This document shows, piece after piece, positions 10,540-22,533 of a stretch of DNA of 64,000 nucleotides. Within the stretch, counting starts at the first letter, position 1. Each line of letters opens with the position of its first letter. The DNA comes from Granulicella sibirica (GTDB taxonomy: Bacteria > Acidobacteriota > Terriglobia > Terriglobales > Acidobacteriaceae), in contig NZ_RDSM01000001.1 in the NCBI RefSeq assembly GCF_004115155.1, positions 930,001 through 994,000 of the forward strand, read 5' to 3'. Below the pieces are notes generated by a model. It saw only the letters and a list, made by a program, of their open reading frames with translations, did no database searches and was not told where the DNA came from. The position numbers were made by a program, and so were the translations under genes.

Positions 10540-11403
10540 ATGCAAACGAACGATCTCCCACCGCTCGAAGAATCCCCCGCCCCAAAGACCCTCGCCTTCC
10601 TCCCCTTCGTCAAGGCCCACGCCAATGGCAACGACTTCCTCATCCTCGAAGAGTCAGTCGCCCACAAGAATCACGCCGCCCTCGCCCGCTGTCTCTGCCA
10701 CCGCACCCAATCCATCGGAGCCGACGGCATCGAGTTCCTCGACCGCCGCCCCAACGGCGCCTTCTTCATCCGCCTCTTCAACTCCGACGGCTCCGAAGCC
10801 GAACTCTCCGGCAACGGCACCCGCTGCGTCGCCGCCTGGCTAGCCGCCACCGAAGGCCTTCAGCGCGTCACGCTGGAAACCCACGGTGGCCCCCGCGCCT
10901 GCGAGATCGTCGAGTCCCGCGACCCTCACTTCCTCATCCGCACCGGCATGGGCCTCCCCCGCGTCATGCCCCGCACCATCGACATCCCCAACATAGGCCC
11001 CATCCCCGGGGCCATGGTCAACGTCGGCAACCCCCACTTCGTCCTCTTCACCGACACCCCCGACTTCAGCGCCCACAACCTCCCTTGGCAGCAGCTAGGC
11101 GCCCTCATCGCCACCAGCCCCCTCTTCCCCCACGGCACCAACGTAGAGTTCGTAAGCGTCCGAAGCCCCGAAGAAATTGCCTTCCGCATTTACGAACGCG
11201 GCTGCGGCCCCACTACCTCCTCCGGCACCGGAACCTGCGCCAGCACCGCCGCCGCGATGACTCTCCGAAACACAAACCGCACCCTGAACGCCATAGCCGA
11301 GGGTGGTCCTCAAACCGTAACCTGGCCCACCCAGGAAGCCGAGATGCACCTAACCGGCCCCGCCGAAATCATCTGCCGAGGCGAAGCTCTCGGCGTGTCC
11401 TAA
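10540..11403 (+). CDS. dapF: Diaminopimelate epimerase homolog with both catalytic Cys replaced by Ser
   Basis: The fold is clearly that of DapF, which converts LL- to meso-diaminopimelate for lysine and peptidoglycan. Visible motifs are AHANGNDFLIL (residues 26-36), FNSDGSEAEL before the first active site, VNVGNPHFVLF, and YERGCGP before the second. In the classical enzyme the two catalytic bases are cysteines preceding GNG and GTG. Here those positions are Ser90 (LSGNGTRC, codon TCC at 10807) and Ser228 (TTSSGTGTC, codon TCC at 11221). Other cysteines lie nearby (Cys96 and Cys233), but not at the catalytic places. At 287 aa it is a little longer than usual because of its N-terminus. Either the family in this lineage works with serine, or the protein has another substrate. 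The gene symbol follows homology only. Confidence 0.85.
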   Translation: MQTNDLPPLEESPAPKTLAFLPFVKAHANGNDFLILEESVAHKNHAALARCLCHRTQSIGADGIEFLDRRPNGAFFIRLFNSDGSEAELSGNGTRCVAAWLAATEGLQRVTLETHGGPRACEIVESRDPHFLIRTGMGLPRVMPRTIDIPNIGPIPGAMVNVGNPHFVLFTDTPDFSAHNLPWQQLGALIATSPLFPHGTNVEFVSVRSPEEIAFRIYERGCGPTTSSGTGTCASTAAAMTLRNTNRTLNAIAEGGPQTVTWPTQEAEMHLTGPAEIICRGEALGVS

Positions 11404-13163: not shown

Positions 13164-14132
13164 ATGCGCACCCTCCTCAAGCCCACGCCCCTGGCCCCTG
13201 GCGCCACCCTCGCCATCGTCTCCCCCGCCAGCACCCCGAAACCCGACCGCGTCCAGCAGGGCATCCAAGCCCTCGAAGCCCTCGGCTACAAAACCAGACT
13301 CTACCCCAACGCCCTCAACAAGGGCCCCCTCTACTTCGCCGGAGACCGCGCCGAGCGCTTGGCCGACCTCCACGCCGCCTTCGCCGACCCTGAAATCGAC
13401 GCAATTATCTGCACAAGGGGAGGCTGGGGCTCTGCTGAGCTTCTTCCCCACCTCGACCTCGAGATGATCCGCGCCAATCCCAAGCCCTTCCTCGGCTACT
13501 CCGACCACACCAGCCTCCACACCTACTTACTCAAGAGCCTGGGCCTCGTCACCTTCTACGCCCCCATGGTCGCCGCTGACTTCGCCCGCCGAAACGGCTA
13601 CGACCAGGCAAGCTGGACCCACGCCCTCACCGGCTCCGATCCCTGGTCCCTCACCGCCACCGACGGCCTCCGCACCCTGCGCCCCGGCACCGCCACCGGC
13701 CAAATCGTCGGAGGCTGCCTCAGCATCTACACCGAGAGCATGGGTACCCCCTACGCCCCCAACGTCTACGCCCCCGACCTCCCCAACTTCCCCACCATCC
13801 TCTTCCTCGAAGACATCGGTACCAAGCCCTACCAGTGGGACCGCTACCTCCTCCACCTCCGCTTCGCTGGCCACCTCGCCACCGCCCAGGCCATCGTCTT
13901 CGGCGACATGAGCCAGAACATCGCCCCCGGGAATCCAGAAGACCTCGCCTTCCTCGAAGCGGTCCTCCTCAACAACCTCCGCGATTTCCAGGGCCCCATC
14001 GCCATCGGCCTCCGCAGCGGCCACGTCGACGCCCCCAACATCACCCTCCCCCTCGGCATCCAGGCCCAGCTCGACACCAGCGACCCCGACAACCCCCGCC
14101 TCACCTATCTCGAATCCGCCGTTCAGCCCTGA
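13164..14132 (+). CDS. LD-carboxypeptidase (peptidase family S66)
   Basis: This is a serine peptidase of family S66. The type enzyme LdcA trims the terminal D-Ala from murein tetrapeptides during cell-wall recycling, and MccF members inactivate microcin. The segments ICTRGGWGSAELLPHLDLE, the nucleophile region FLGYSDHTSL, FLEDIGTKPYQWDRYLLHL (with the Glu) and SGHVDAPNITLPLG (with the His) are all present, so the Ser-Glu-His triad is complete. Length is 322 aa. There is no signal peptide, in agreement with cytoplasmic recycling. The location, close to dapB, dapA and mpl, supports a murein role over microcin immunity. Confidence 0.9.
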   Translation: MRTLLKPTPLAPGATLAIVSPASTPKPDRVQQGIQALEALGYKTRLYPNALNKGPLYFAGDRAERLADLHAAFADPEIDAIICTRGGWGSAELLPHLDLEMIRANPKPFLGYSDHTSLHTYLLKSLGLVTFYAPMVAADFARRNGYDQASWTHALTGSDPWSLTATDGLRTLRPGTATGQIVGGCLSIYTESMGTPYAPNVYAPDLPNFPTILFLEDIGTKPYQWDRYLLHLRFAGHLATAQAIVFGDMSQNIAPGNPEDLAFLEAVLLNNLRDFQGPIAIGLRSGHVDAPNITLPLGIQAQLDTSDPDNPRLTYLESAVQP

Positions 14133-14555: not shown

Positions 14556-15266
14556 ATGCGCATTCTCGTCCTGGGACATGGCAAGACCGGCAAGCTCGTC
14601 GCCGAAGTGGCAAGCGAACGTGGACATGGCGTAAACGTCCTCGACGCCAGGGAAAACCAGAATGCCGCGGCTCTCACTCCCGCATTCCTGGCAGGCTTCG
14701 ACGCCGTCATCGACTTCACCACACCTGAAGCGGTTATCCCCAACATGCGCGCCTGCCTCTTCTCCGGCGCCCGCATGGTCGTCGGAACCACAGGCTGGTA
14801 CAGCAAGCTCAAGGACATGCGCGATCTCGCCGAGCGCAAGGATGCAGGTCTTCTCTACGGTTCTAACTTCTCTATCGGCGTACAGGTCATGCATCAACTC
14901 GCCGAGCAGATGGGAGCCGCGCTCTCGGGCGCAGGCTACGACTTTGCCATGAGCGAGACTCACCACATCACCAAGATGGATAAACCCTCCGGAACCGCCC
15001 TGACCCTCGTAGACGCCGTGGTCCAGGGATCTTCGTCCGCCGGAAAGACAGGCATCGCCAAGGAGCACATCCCAATCGAGGCCATCCGCGACGGCGACGC
15101 GCCTGGTCTCCATGTCCTTACCGCAACCTCCGGCGCCGACCGCCTCACCCTAACCCACGAAGCTTTTTCCCGCCGAGGCTTCGCCGAAGGCGCAGTCCGA
15201 GCTGCTGAATGGCTGGCTACCCGCAAAGGCTGCTATGACTTCCGCGAGGTCTTTACGAAGCTTTAG
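14556..15266 (+). CDS. dapB: 4-hydroxy-tetrahydrodipicolinate reductase
   Basis: DapB reduces hydroxy-tetrahydrodipicolinate with NAD(P)H in the lysine/DAP pathway. The N-terminal Rossmann motif is LGHGKTGKLV, and VIDFTTPEAV and VVGTTGWY follow. The catalytic segment SETHHITKMDKPSGTA (His-His and Lys) is intact, and the C-terminal SRRGFAEGAVRAAEWL is typical. At 236 aa it belongs to the short version of the family. GGAAAG lies about 10 bases before the ATG. An M29 aminopeptidase and dapA follow on the same strand with gaps of 111 and 67 bases, so the three may form one unit. Confidence 0.95.
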   Translation: MRILVLGHGKTGKLVAEVASERGHGVNVLDARENQNAAALTPAFLAGFDAVIDFTTPEAVIPNMRACLFSGARMVVGTTGWYSKLKDMRDLAERKDAGLLYGSNFSIGVQVMHQLAEQMGAALSGAGYDFAMSETHHITKMDKPSGTALTLVDAVVQGSSSAGKTGIAKEHIPIEAIRDGDAPGLHVLTATSGADRLTLTHEAFSRRGFAEGAVRAAEWLATRKGCYDFREVFTKL

Positions 15267-15377: not shown

Positions 15378-16667
15378 ATGAGTCTCCCGGCTATTCTCGA
15401 GCAGGCCTCCGCCACCGCCACATTACCGTCATTTGAGAGCCTCACCTTCGAGCAGAAGCTCGATCGATTTGCCGAAGTCGCCGTCCGTGTGGGTCTCAAC
15501 CTGGCCGAAGGTCAAGAGCTCTTGATCTCCGCTCCGATCGAAGCGCTTCCTTTGGTTCGCCGCATCACGGACCATGCCTACAAAGCTGGAGCGCTCCTCG
15601 TCACGAGCTTTTACGCCGACGATCCAGCCGTTCTCGCCCGTTACCAGTTCGCGCAGGATAAGAGCTTTGACTACGCTCCGACGTGGCTGCAGGAAGGAAT
15701 CGCGAATGCCTTCCGCTCCGGGGCCGCTCGGCTCGCAATCTCCGGAGCGAATCCCGCTCTCCTCTCGGGTCAGGATCCAGGGAAGATCGCCCGCGCCAAC
15801 GTCGCCGCCTCAAAGGCCAGCAAACCCGCAATGGAGATGATCACCCGCCACGATATCAACTGGTCGATCGTCGCCTACGCGACACCCGAATGGGCTAAAC
15901 TCGCCTTCCCTGACGCTCCGGTAGAAATCGCCGTCGAAAAGCTCTGGGACGCGATCTTCAAGGCCTCGCGCATCACCGGCGCGGATCCCTGCGCCGACTG
16001 GCAGGAGCACACCACGTTCCTTAAATCCCGCGTCGACAAGCTAAACCAGAAGCACTACCACAGCCTGCACTTCAAGGGCTCAGGAACCGATCTCCACGTA
16101 GGTCTCGCCGACGACCACCTCTGGGCTGGCGGAGGAGGGCCATCCGGAAACGGAATCTTCTGCAACCCGAACATCCCGACTGAAGAATGCTTCACGACGC
16201 CCCACAAGGACCGTGTCGATGGCTTCGCACGCGCCTCGAAACCTCTCTCGCACCAGGGCACCCTGATCAAAGACATCGCGGTTCGCTTCGAAAAAGGGAA
16301 GATCGTCCAAGCAAGTGCAAGCGCTGGAGAGGATGCCCTCAAACGCCTGATCGCTACCGATGATGGGGCACGCCGCCTGGGTGAAGTTGCTCTCGTCCCC
16401 CACTCCTCGCCCATAGCGCAAACCGGAATCCTCTTCTGGAACACCCTCTTCGACGAGAACGCTGCGAGCCACATCGCACTCGGACAGGCCTACGCGACCT
16501 GCCTGATCGACGGCGAGAAGATGGACGAGACGACGCTTGCCGCCAAGGGAGCGAATCACAGTCTCATCCACGTGGACTGGATGATTGGATCCGCAGAGAT
16601 CGACGTCGATGGTGTCGGCGCCGACGGAACGGCCGAACCGCTGATGCGCAGCGGAGAGTGGGTTTAG
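15378..16667 (+). CDS. Aminopeptidase, M29 (thermophilic aminopeptidase) family
   Basis: This is a metal-dependent exopeptidase of family M29 (AmpS/AmpT/PepS type), 429 aa, cytoplasmic. The metal-binding segments are easily seen in the C-terminal half: NIPTEECFTTPHKDRVDG, then LFWNTLFDENAASHIALG, and SLIHVDWMIGSAEIDVDG. The family removes N-terminal residues from peptides with broad specificity. Its position between dapB and dapA is notable. It may supply amino acids from recycled peptides, including murein peptides, but that is inference. No signal peptide is present. Confidence 0.92.
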   Translation: MSLPAILEQASATATLPSFESLTFEQKLDRFAEVAVRVGLNLAEGQELLISAPIEALPLVRRITDHAYKAGALLVTSFYADDPAVLARYQFAQDKSFDYAPTWLQEGIANAFRSGAARLAISGANPALLSGQDPGKIARANVAASKASKPAMEMITRHDINWSIVAYATPEWAKLAFPDAPVEIAVEKLWDAIFKASRITGADPCADWQEHTTFLKSRVDKLNQKHYHSLHFKGSGTDLHVGLADDHLWAGGGGPSGNGIFCNPNIPTEECFTTPHKDRVDGFARASKPLSHQGTLIKDIAVRFEKGKIVQASASAGEDALKRLIATDDGARRLGEVALVPHSSPIAQTGILFWNTLFDENAASHIALGQAYATCLIDGEKMDETTLAAKGANHSLIHVDWMIGSAEIDVDGVGADGTAEPLMRSGEWV

Positions 16668-16734: not shown

Positions 16735-17652
16735 ATGAACCTCCAAGGCTGCGGTACCGCGCTCATTACCCCATTTCAAGCTGACGGCAGCATCGACGAG
16801 TCCGCGCTCGTCGCACTCGTTGACTGGCAGATCGAATCGGGCGTTCACTTCCTGATCCCCTGTGGGACGACTGGCGAAGCCGCAACGCTCACCTCCTCTG
16901 AAACCGAGCGCGTCATCGAACTTGTGTGCGCCACTGCCGCGGGCCGAGTCCCGGTATTCGCAGGATGCACTCACAACTCCACCGCTGAAGCTGTGGCTCG
17001 GGTTCAAAGTTTGGCGAGAGTCCCCGGCCTGAGCGGCCTGCTCACGGCAAACCCGTATTACAACCGCCCGAACCAGGAAGGGCAGTACCAGCACTTCAAG
17101 GCGATCGCGAACGCAGTTGATCTGCCGATCCTGCTCTACAACATTCCCTCGCGCACGGGAGCCAATCTGGAGCCCGCAACAGTGCGGAGGCTGGCGGAGA
17201 TCACAAATGTCATTGGAATCAAGGAGTCGAGCGGCAACCTAGTCCAGATCACGGAGCTTCTCACAACGCTGTCCCCGGAGTTCAAGGTCTTTGCCGGAGA
17301 CGATGTGCTTGCGCTTCCCATCCTGGCACTCGGGGCCGTGGGCCTGATCTCGGTCGCCTCAAATGTCATCCCAGCCGAGACCGCTCGGTTGACACAGGCC
17401 GCCATCGATGGCGATTGGGCTAGGGCGCGCAGCATCAATCGCGAGTTCTACAAGCTGATGCAGTCTCTCTTCCTTGAACCGAGTCCTGCCCCGGCGAAGG
17501 CTCTGTTGAACATCATGGGACGCGCCCACGATGCCTTGCGGCTTCCTTTGGTCTCCGTCTCAGCTCCGGTTCGGCAGAGACTGGAGGATCTGATCGCGGA
17601 GATCGCGCAGTTACACGGAGTGTCGACCGCAAGAGATCTTCACATGGTCTAG
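16735..17652 (+). CDS. dapA: 4-hydroxy-tetrahydrodipicolinate synthase
   Basis: DapA condenses pyruvate with aspartate semialdehyde, the first committed step to DAP and lysine. The TIM-barrel lyase motifs are complete: CGTTGEAATLTSSE near residue 45, the active Tyr in ANPYYNRPNQEGQYQHF, YNIPSRTG, and the Schiff-base Lys in VIGIKESSGNL. Length is 305 aa, normal. A strong hairpin lies just after the stop. The partner enzymes lysC and asd, which supply its substrate, are about 8 kb further on, on the other strand. Confidence 0.96.
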   Translation: MNLQGCGTALITPFQADGSIDESALVALVDWQIESGVHFLIPCGTTGEAATLTSSETERVIELVCATAAGRVPVFAGCTHNSTAEAVARVQSLARVPGLSGLLTANPYYNRPNQEGQYQHFKAIANAVDLPILLYNIPSRTGANLEPATVRRLAEITNVIGIKESSGNLVQITELLTTLSPEFKVFAGDDVLALPILALGAVGLISVASNVIPAETARLTQAAIDGDWARARSINREFYKLMQSLFLEPSPAPAKALLNIMGRAHDALRLPLVSVSAPVRQRLEDLIAEIAQLHGVSTARDLHMV

Positions 17653-20947: not shown

Positions 20948-22384
20948 TTAGTTGAGGATATCAGCCGGTGCTTCGGCGATGGCATTGGGAAGTTTTTCGT
21001 AGATGTTGCCAAAACCGCCGTTGGAGAGAATCGCGATGACATCTCCGGATTTCAGTTGAGGGGTAAGCGCTTCGACGATGGCATCGGCGTCCGGGTAGAC
21101 GGTGGCGGGAATGTTGCGGGCGCGGAGGCTGGCAGCGACATTTTCAGGGTGGAGACGCTCGGTGACGGGGATGGATTCGCTCTTGAAGACGCCCGCGAGG
21201 ACGACCTGGTCGGCTAGGGCGAGGGAGTCGACCAGGTCCTGCTCGAAGACGTTGCGGCGGAGCGTGTTCGAGCGGGGCTCGAGGATGGCGACGAGACGGC
21301 GTCCGCGATAGCTGGTGCGCAGGGCGCGGAGGGTCTCCCGGATGGCGGTGGGGTGGTGCGCGAAGTCGTCGATGATGGTGATGCCGTGGACCTCTGCGCG
21401 GACCTCGAGGCGCCGCTTGACGCTGCGGAAGGTGGCGAGGGCTTCGACGATGGCCTCCGTTGGAACGCCTTGGCCAGCGGCCAGCGCGGCTGCGGCCGTG
21501 GCGTTGAAGGCATTGTGCTCACCGGCCATTGGGAGGGTGAGCGTGGCGAAGGGCTCGCCTTTGCGGCGGAGGTCCCAGGTCGAGGTTGTGCCCTCGTGAG
21601 TGAGGTTGGCGATGTGCCAGTAAGAGCTGGGCAGGAGGCCGTAGCGCTCGACGGCGCAGAAGGCTCGGTCGATGCACTCGGTGACGTTCAGGCTGGCGTC
21701 GAACGCGACGACACGACCTCGGCGGGGAATGAGGTTGACGAGGCGTTTGAAGGCGGTCTTGACGGCTGGTAGATCGGGGTAGATGTCGGCGTGATCGAAC
21801 TCGACGTGGGTGAGGATGGCGGCGTCGGGAAAGTAGTGGAGGAACTTAGGCCCCTTGTCGAAGAAGGCGGTGTCGTACTCGTCACCTTCAAGGAGGAAGG
21901 GCCTGGTGCCGCGGACCAGGAAGGAACGTCCGAAGTTCTCGGCGAGGCCTCCGATGAGGAAGCTTGGAGCGAGTTCGGGGTGGGTGTGGCTGGCGACCTC
22001 GTAGATCCAGGCGAGCATGCTTGTCGTGGTGGTCTTGCCGTGGGTTCCGGCGACGACGAGGGATTCGCGGTTGGGGAGGAACTCGTCGTGGAGAAGCGCG
22101 GCCATGCTGGTGAAGGGGATGCGCTGGTCGAGGACGTATTCGAGTTCGACGTTCCCTCGGGAGATGGCGTTTCCGACGACTACCAAATCGGGGCGTGGCG
22201 TGAGGTTGATTTCGGCGTAGGGCTCGTGGACAGGGATGCGGAGGGCGGCGAGTTGGTCGGACATCGGCGGGTAAGCGGCGGCGTCGGAGCCGGTGACGCT
22301 GTGGCCGATCTGTTGGAGCATGCCTGCGAGAGAGGCCATCGCTGTGCCGCAGATGCCGATGAGGTGAATGTGTTTTGTCTTCAT
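20948..22384 (-). CDS. mpl: UDP-N-acetylmuramate:L-alanyl-gamma-D-glutamyl-meso-DAP ligase (murein peptide ligase)
   Basis: This Mur-ligase-family protein of 478 aa begins MKTKHIHLIGICGTAMASLA, has the ATP loop AGTHGKTTTTSM, FLIGGLAENFG, EGDEYDTAFFDKGPKFLHY, VEFDHADIYPDL and DDFAHHPTAIRETL. The EYDTAFFDK and DDFAHHPTAI wording is that of Mpl, which ligates a recycled tripeptide to UDP-MurNAc, rather than of MurC, which adds L-Ala. MurC is the main alternative. Mpl consumes meso-DAP-containing peptide, so it links the recycling enzymes here to the DAP genes. The start at 22384 avoids a long unrelated extension into the repeat-bearing leader. Confidence 0.88.
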   Translation of the reverse strand: MKTKHIHLIGICGTAMASLAGMLQQIGHSVTGSDAAAYPPMSDQLAALRIPVHEPYAEINLTPRPDLVVVGNAISRGNVELEYVLDQRIPFTSMAALLHDEFLPNRESLVVAGTHGKTTTTSMLAWIYEVASHTHPELAPSFLIGGLAENFGRSFLVRGTRPFLLEGDEYDTAFFDKGPKFLHYFPDAAILTHVEFDHADIYPDLPAVKTAFKRLVNLIPRRGRVVAFDASLNVTECIDRAFCAVERYGLLPSSYWHIANLTHEGTTSTWDLRRKGEPFATLTLPMAGEHNAFNATAAAALAAGQGVPTEAIVEALATFRSVKRRLEVRAEVHGITIIDDFAHHPTAIRETLRALRTSYRGRRLVAILEPRSNTLRRNVFEQDLVDSLALADQVVLAGVFKSESIPVTERLHPENVAASLRARNIPATVYPDADAIVEALTPQLKSGDVIAILSNGGFGNIYEKLPNAIAEAPADILN

Positions 22385-22475
22385 GGCTTCGTGATCCGCA
22401 CCTGTCTCAGGAGGTACCCCCCCTATGTAGTGGGTGACTTTCTTTGTTTTGTGCAGCTTACGCCGATATTTTTTT

Positions 22476-22533
22476 GCAAATTCCTCCAAACAAAGGAGTT
22501 GCGGGTAAATTCCTCAAAAGAAAAGGGTTGCGG
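22476..22533. repeat. Head-to-tail pair of a 29-base repeat
   Basis: Two directly adjacent 29-base units (22476-22504 and 22505-22533) agree at 24 positions. Each reads AAATTCCTC near its start and GTTGCGG at its end. The first contains GGAG complementary to CTCC, so each unit can also fold weakly. They lie about 90 bases upstream of the mpl start. Confidence 0.7.

Follow-up and report, generated by a model that had tools for sequence, protein, structure and literature searches.

The window analysed here is a 64,000-nucleotide stretch of the Granulicella sibirica genome (assembly GCF_004115155.1, contig NZ_RDSM01000001.1, positions 930,001 to 994,000), and our subject within it is dapF, which encodes a homologue of diaminopimelate (DAP) epimerase with serine at both positions where the family has its catalytic cysteines. 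This Ser-Ser variant is undescribed in the literature searched, is widespread in its phylum and, judging from sequence, is likely active.

A DapF homologue with serine at both catalytic sites

The segments of the dapF product (open reading frame 10540-11403) that carry the two catalytic positions read SEAELSGNGTRCVA and CGPTTSSGTGTCAS, or in longer form SEAELSGNGTRC and GPTTSSGTGTC. The codons and the alignment with E. coli DapF both bear out the original prediction, made from the letters of the window alone, that residues 90 and 228 are serines at the sites of the catalytic cysteines. The protein scored 192.8 bits against the NCBIfam DapF model TIGR00652 (cut-off 114.65) and 149.5 bits against PF01678 (34.7), the sole family in a Pfam scan, which gave no match to the proline racemase superfamily; the model for bifunctional DapF/glutamate racemase, NF038284, gave 74.1 bits, below its curated cut-off of 350. 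The predicted structure has the two-domain DapF fold with two opposed central helices, of which helix 91-105 would begin directly after Ser90 and helix 229-242 directly after Ser228. Its nearest proteins come from Granulicella pectinivorans (72%), an Edaphobacter sp. (72%) and metagenome-assembled genomes of Acidobacteriota. Because the two catalytic cysteines are absent, we class the protein not as an ordinary member of the family but as a Ser-Ser variant that would work like DapF.

We compared the substrate pocket with that of Corynebacterium glutamicum DapF, where change to alanine at N15, N74, N85, N159, N194, E212, R213 or T223 nearly abolishes activity (PMC5296763). With Thr or Ser allowed at the T223 equivalent, all eight residues are present in the window protein (Table 1) and in 97 of 97 aligned Ser-Ser sequences outside a small group from two families, f3 and f25. 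Among the best 80 named loci, the full set was found in 13/13 Ser-Ser, 61/64 Cys-Cys and 3/3 Cys-Ser proteins; it was found in none of the 60 acidobacterial Cys-Cys, four acidobacterial Cys-Ser and three f3/f25 Ser-Ser sequences. The shortfall in these last three sets lies mostly at N159, where 46 of the 60 Cys-Cys proteins have Val. By these predicted contacts, the classical DAP pocket belongs to the Ser-Ser proteins, and within the phylum it is those with Cys-Cys that are unusual.

Table 1. Positions, in window coordinates, of dapF, its active-site codons and pathway genes (Cg, C. glutamicum DapF)
Feature	Position	Strand	Basis
dapF, Ser-Ser diaminopimelate epimerase homologue, 287 aa	10540..11403	+	family profile matches
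Asn31, DAP contact (Cg N15)	10630..10632	+	residue list PMC5296763
Asn81, DAP contact (Cg N74)	10780..10782	+	alignment to eight-residue list
Ser90 codon TCC, site of first catalytic Cys (E. coli C73)	10807..10809	+	alignment with E. coli DapF
Asn92, DAP contact (Cg N85)	10813..10815	+	alignment to eight-residue list
Asn164, DAP contact (Cg N159); replaced, mostly by Val, in phylum's Cys-Cys homologues	11029..11031	+	
Asn201, DAP contact (Cg N194)	11140..11142	+	alignment to eight-residue list
Glu219-Arg220, DAP contacts (Cg E212, R213)	11194..11199	+	alignment to eight-residue list
Ser228 codon TCC, site of second catalytic Cys (E. coli C217)	11221..11223	+	alignment with E. coli DapF
Thr230, DAP contact (Cg T223)	11227..11229	+	alignment to eight-residue list
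dapB, 4-hydroxy-tetrahydrodipicolinate reductase	14556..15266	+	TIGR00036 over cut-off
dapA, 4-hydroxy-tetrahydrodipicolinate synthase	16735..17652	+	TIGR00674 over cut-off
mpl, murein tripeptide ligase, named for meso-DAP peptide	20948..22489	-	TIGR01081 over cut-off

Spread and origins of the Ser-Ser form

A DapF match was found in 60 of the 62 genomes of the genus, and at the loci read in 29 of the 59 other genomes with a match, both sites were serine in every case (29/29). This rules out sequencing error, the first objection that the original prediction had raised against itself. From the phylum we drew 297 genomes, of which 284 had a DapF match and 260 a match over the cut-off. The loci read from genus and phylum together numbered 191 in 189 genomes, with both sites readable in 188 (L177 is incomplete): 124 genomes were Ser-Ser, 60 Cys-Cys and 4 Cys-Ser. 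Of 73 families, 37 yielded nothing but Ser-Ser, 29 nothing but Cys-Cys and 4 nothing but Cys-Ser, while 3 were mixed, Ser-Ser being present in 40; since genomes were picked by best score and family spread and the genus was heavily sampled, none of these counts is a frequency. The question of whether relatives in Acidobacteriota conserve the pair is thus answered positively, and the double swap is neither a sequencing error nor a local oddity.

The best 80 named loci comprised 13 Ser-Ser, 64 Cys-Cys and 3 Cys-Ser proteins. All 13 Ser-Ser loci are titled Acidobacteria, Blastocatellia, Bryobacterales or Candidatus Aminicenantes, and none was seen outside Acidobacteriota in this small and biased sample. 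Natural Cys-Ser proteins, in which the first cysteine is kept and the second is serine, occur at L125, L130, L139 and L152 and at the three named loci, all from Hydrogenedentota (L236, L270, L280). The reverse state, Ser-Cys, was absent from the 188 genomes and the best 80 named loci, so the second catalytic site may change before the first.

Across the 124 Ser-Ser loci, whose median pairwise identity is 38% (1500 sampled pairs), 17 residues are invariant. Two of these are Ser90 and Ser228, whose invariance follows from the choice of these sequences as Ser-Ser; the choice leaves unaffected the result for the main clade described below, in which 0 of 94 sequences depart from Ser at either site. 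At the other 15, the most frequent residue of the Cys-Cys sequences is the same. Position 227, next to Ser228, is Ser in 98, Ala in 25 and Phe in 1 of the 124. The codon is TCN in 116 and AGC in 8 at Ser90, and TCN in 123 and AGC in 1 at Ser228.

We built a tree of 165 sequences (100 Ser-Ser, 60 Cys-Cys plus E. coli, and 4 Cys-Ser; most genus loci, L177 and L182 were left out); this and the following tree are quick searches with many weak forks. The tree placed 94 Ser-Ser sequences in one clade, three from families f22 and f65 in a separate group, and the three from f3 and f25 (L072, L091 and L137) among Cys-Cys proteins. With the catalytic columns masked, the three catalytic states need five changes. 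A 78-sequence tree with other phyla puts the main Ser-Ser clade together with ordinary DapF (Bacillota, Planctomycetota, E. coli) and sets all acidobacterial Cys-Cys sequences but L032 apart. A single origin of all Ser-Ser proteins was borderline in an approximately unbiased (AU) test (p 0.0515) and was rejected with another model and a fuller search (p 0.0027); an initial run, in which the constrained searches were fast ones, returned a much lower p, on which we do not rely. Without L072, L091 and L137, the remaining Ser-Ser proteins, that is, the main clade with the f22/f65 group, are compatible with one clade (p 0.833 and 0.719).

Evidence for and against epimerase function

The G. sibirica genome (G000; 6.14 Mb, 99.9% complete) contains a single PF01678 protein, the window DapF, so that the whole-genome search for a second dapF that had been proposed came back empty; nor was a match to DAP dehydrogenase found in it. 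The dehydrogenase model gave some match in 20 of 80 genomes and exceeded its cut-off in one, which is Cys-Cys (G239), and in none of the 50 Ser-Ser genomes. DapD is present over the NF008808 cut-off (the same protein falls under that of TIGR00965), as are LysA and a MurE with the motif DNPR, which we take to mark the meso-DAP type. We take LysA to require the meso isomer. Across genomes, LysA exceeded its cut-off in 40/50 Ser-Ser genomes and 9/30 others. The predicted company of dapA, dapB and mpl in the window held up, each scoring over its TIGR cut-off. With DapD, LysA and a DNPR MurE present and no second DapF or dehydrogenase found, something must make meso-DAP; the succinylase route yields LL-DAP, which needs an epimerase, and the window protein is the only candidate recognised. 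We rejected DapL as the LL-DAP source: a 435-bit match is an alanine transaminase (PRK08175 over cut-off), and nothing in this genome exceeded the cut-off of the DapL model TIGR03542. The full route is not found in every acidobacterium, since Chloracidobacterium is described as being without lysine synthesis (PMC12816986).

Further evidence comes from genus g63 (family f41), all four drawn genomes of which were read. In G127 and G214 a degP-like gene is followed by Ser-Ser dapF, a reverse gene and lon (reverse), an order common to the relatives G303 and G251. G258 and G311 have the same locus without dapF (the reverse gene is thiL in G258), and their only DapF match is a Cys-Cys protein over the DapF cut-off, located elsewhere among other neighbours (L298, L299). 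These two genomes are 94-96% complete and a second copy could have been missed, yet both show that the gene has gone from its former place. Such replacement is expected if both proteins do the same job, and it suggests that the Ser-Ser and Cys-Cys forms are exchangeable in g63. It also implies that a missing N159 need not mean a different substrate. As a separate matter, the substrate of the acidobacterial Cys-Cys proteins (e.g. L033, L081, L102) merits attention, given Val at the Asn159 position in 46 of 60 and the absence of LysA over cut-off from 17 of the 26 Cys-Cys genomes tested.

We conclude, with a probability of roughly 0.8, that the window protein would be a working DAP epimerase converting LL-DAP to meso-DAP with Ser90 and Ser228 in place of the two cysteines. 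Acidobacteriota with the Ser-Ser gene would then probably do without a sulphur group in this reaction. In the mechanism we propose, the two serines would be the acid/base pair on the two faces of the substrate, each of them, in the predicted fold, immediately preceding a central helix, as the cysteines of DapF do. Helix dipoles and the closed pocket would lower the serine pKa, one hydroxyl or alkoxide would take the alpha proton, and the other serine would return one. Glu219 would hold the alpha-ammonium, and Asn92, Gly91, Gly229 and Thr230 the alpha-carboxylate. Because two serines form no inhibitory disulfide, the enzyme should be insensitive to a disulfide switch, and also to thiol reagents. 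The original prediction had left a choice between a serine version of the enzyme in this lineage and a protein for another substrate with the true DapF elsewhere. The first is favoured by the lack of a second DapF, the retained DAP contacts, the phylum-wide spread and the Cys-Cys replacement in one genus; the second finds no support in the whole-genome search, which showed one PF01678 protein, nor in the Ser-Ser proteins, whose fit to the known DAP pocket is closer than that of their Cys-Cys counterparts in the phylum.

Several points weigh against this conclusion. Cys-to-Ser changes almost abolish activity in PddB (PMC8225329) and greatly lower it in HisR (PMC11602996). LysA over cut-off was not found in 10 of the 50 Ser-Ser genomes, the own-genome search covered the succinylase route in part (DapA, DapB and DapD), and the DAP isomer of these bacteria's walls was not found in excerpts of the open-licence literature searched. 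Two f22 genomes with a Ser-Ser gene (G121 and G291; L116 and L059 are listed with f22) have further DapF matches. L072, L091 and L137, the proteins of second origin, are without the Asn159 equivalent, and the genome of one of them, G062, has no LysA match; on both grounds, these three may have another function. Finally, the closeness of dapF to dap genes seen in the window is no general rule: tblastn with the G. sibirica proteins as queries (E 1e-8, flanks up to 6 kb; far relatives could escape) found no DapA, DapB, LysA or DapD near the Ser-Ser gene in 13 named loci, and mpl in one of the 13.

The loss of activity in the serine mutants of cysteine racemases, the genomes without LysA and the additional f22 matches would also suit an alternative in which the Ser-Ser protein has the DapF fold but acts on another substrate or catalyses another reaction, with meso-DAP supplied by some enzyme not recognised here, and fold relatives with other chemistry do exist (PhzF, the hydroxyproline enzymes). 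We consider this unlikely, since it leaves unexplained why eight DAP contacts are kept in 97/97 sequences, why the genome has neither a second DapF nor a DAP dehydrogenase match, and why a Cys-Cys DapF takes the place of the Ser-Ser gene within one genus. A glutamate racemase role is not needed either, because MurI is separately present (TIGR00067 over cut-off), with motifs ACNTA and LGCTH that we take to be its cysteine motifs. MurI having kept them, a general loss of cysteine from this genome's racemases can be dismissed. Two other Asp/Glu-racemase-family proteins of the genome appear by eye to be without catalytic cysteines, the motifs reading ALSSMGAH and LGGTDL in one (L312:1474-2235) and TAVGPHI and LAGTEL in the other (L314:1471-2169).

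Less probable still is a weak or dead epimerase, with wall and lysine built from LL-DAP by a tolerant MurE and LysA. Streptomyces walls contain LL-DAP, so a MurE can take this isomer, and slow turnover would be expected from serine's high pKa. A full DAP pocket maintained at 38% median identity is not expected of a dead enzyme, however, and the meso requirement of LysA, the mpl gene in the window and the presumably meso-type MurE all speak against it. That another residue transfers the proton while the serines merely hold the substrate is very improbable: Cys233, which lies nearby, is present in 66% of 100 Ser-Ser sequences and not invariant, and since the 15 other invariant residues lead likewise in Cys-Cys sequences, none is a new invariant candidate base.

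Around the window gene, a protein resembling muramoyltetrapeptide (LD-) carboxypeptidase lies between dapF and dapB (13164-14129; 132.7 bits, below the cut-off of 378), which together with mpl suggests a murein recycling neighbourhood. A 429-amino-acid open reading frame between dapB and dapA (15378-16667) has no NCBIfam match and by eye resembles an M29-type aminopeptidase. The gene immediately after the Ser-Ser dapF of G121 encodes an M20-family deacylase, a relative of ArgE/DapE. In four f22 genomes read (L172-L174, L176) there is a DapF-like gene that is Cys-Cys, divergent and under the DapF cut-off.

Relation to known enzymes

Cofactor-independent racemases are explained by a thiolate-thiol pair. 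The pKa is about 8.5 for the cysteine thiolate and about 29 for the alpha proton (PMC12039745), and how even the thiolate can abstract that proton is in our judgement an open problem of enzymology. If our reading is right, the thiol is not required, the rate enhancement would be placed in the pocket, and DapF inhibitors that are aziridines or are directed at thiols are predicted to meet natural resistance. The result would bear on how Acidobacteriota make their wall and lysine, and automatic DapF annotation hides the active-site change. Acidobacteriota are a common soil phylum. We lean, with less assurance than for the window protein itself, towards the view that cofactor-independent amino-acid epimerases include a second catalytic class, built on a natural, thiol-free Ser-Ser dyad that would move a proton of pKa near 29. 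The dyad occurs in over half of the families of Acidobacteriota that were read, would have evolved more than once, would have traded places with the cysteine enzyme in one genus or more, and would be proof against the disulfide switch and thiol-directed DapF inhibitors. In C. glutamicum, a disulfide joining the two cysteines of DapF turns the enzyme off (PMC5296763); a Ser-Ser protein cannot form one, and escape from this switch could conceivably have driven the swap. Redox protection as the cause of the swap is only an idea, and the Ser-Ser proteins of Candidatus Aminicenantes fit it poorly. Candidatus Aminicenantes are thought to be anaerobic.

O-ureidoserine racemase and the histidine racemase CntK have two cysteines. 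These two (the former as 7vdy), with a further histidine racemase, HisR (PMC11602996) and PddB (PMC8225329), which also have two cysteines, are DapF-like cofactor-independent racemases that differ from the window protein in substrate. A natural Ser-Ser DapF was not described in the open-licence literature searched (titles and abstract openings, with subscription journals mostly outside it), nor in passages of PMC12039745, PMC11602996, PMC8225329, PMC5885031, PMC4113996, PMC12935467, PMC12816986, PMC5296763 and PMC8142540; excerpts of the last, a review, give a Cys-to-Thr exception in another family and name none for DapF. A single catalytic Ser does have precedent. In the proline racemase superfamily, a Ser in place of one catalytic Cys is assigned as catalytic both in the Ser/Cys 4-hydroxyproline 2-epimerase and in the Ser/Thr trans-3-hydroxyproline dehydratase (PMC4113996). 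Both share the fold class, but they belong to another family with other substrates and have on the opposite face Cys (epimerase) or Thr (dehydratase), the Ser-Ser pair not appearing in the excerpts of that paper. The closest likeness is to DapF itself (TIGR00652; structures from Haemophilus, E. coli, Corynebacterium, a cyanobacterium and Arabidopsis), with which the window protein has in common the family score, the fold, the eight DAP-site residues, the catalytic positions at helix N-termini and the pathway genes in the genome, and from which its clade differs in naturally having serines for both catalytic cysteines. The H. influenzae DapF crystal mutants C73S and C217S (PDB 2q9h, 2q9j) have Ser at one of the same two sites; these are laboratory single mutants, whereas the window protein has both serines naturally.
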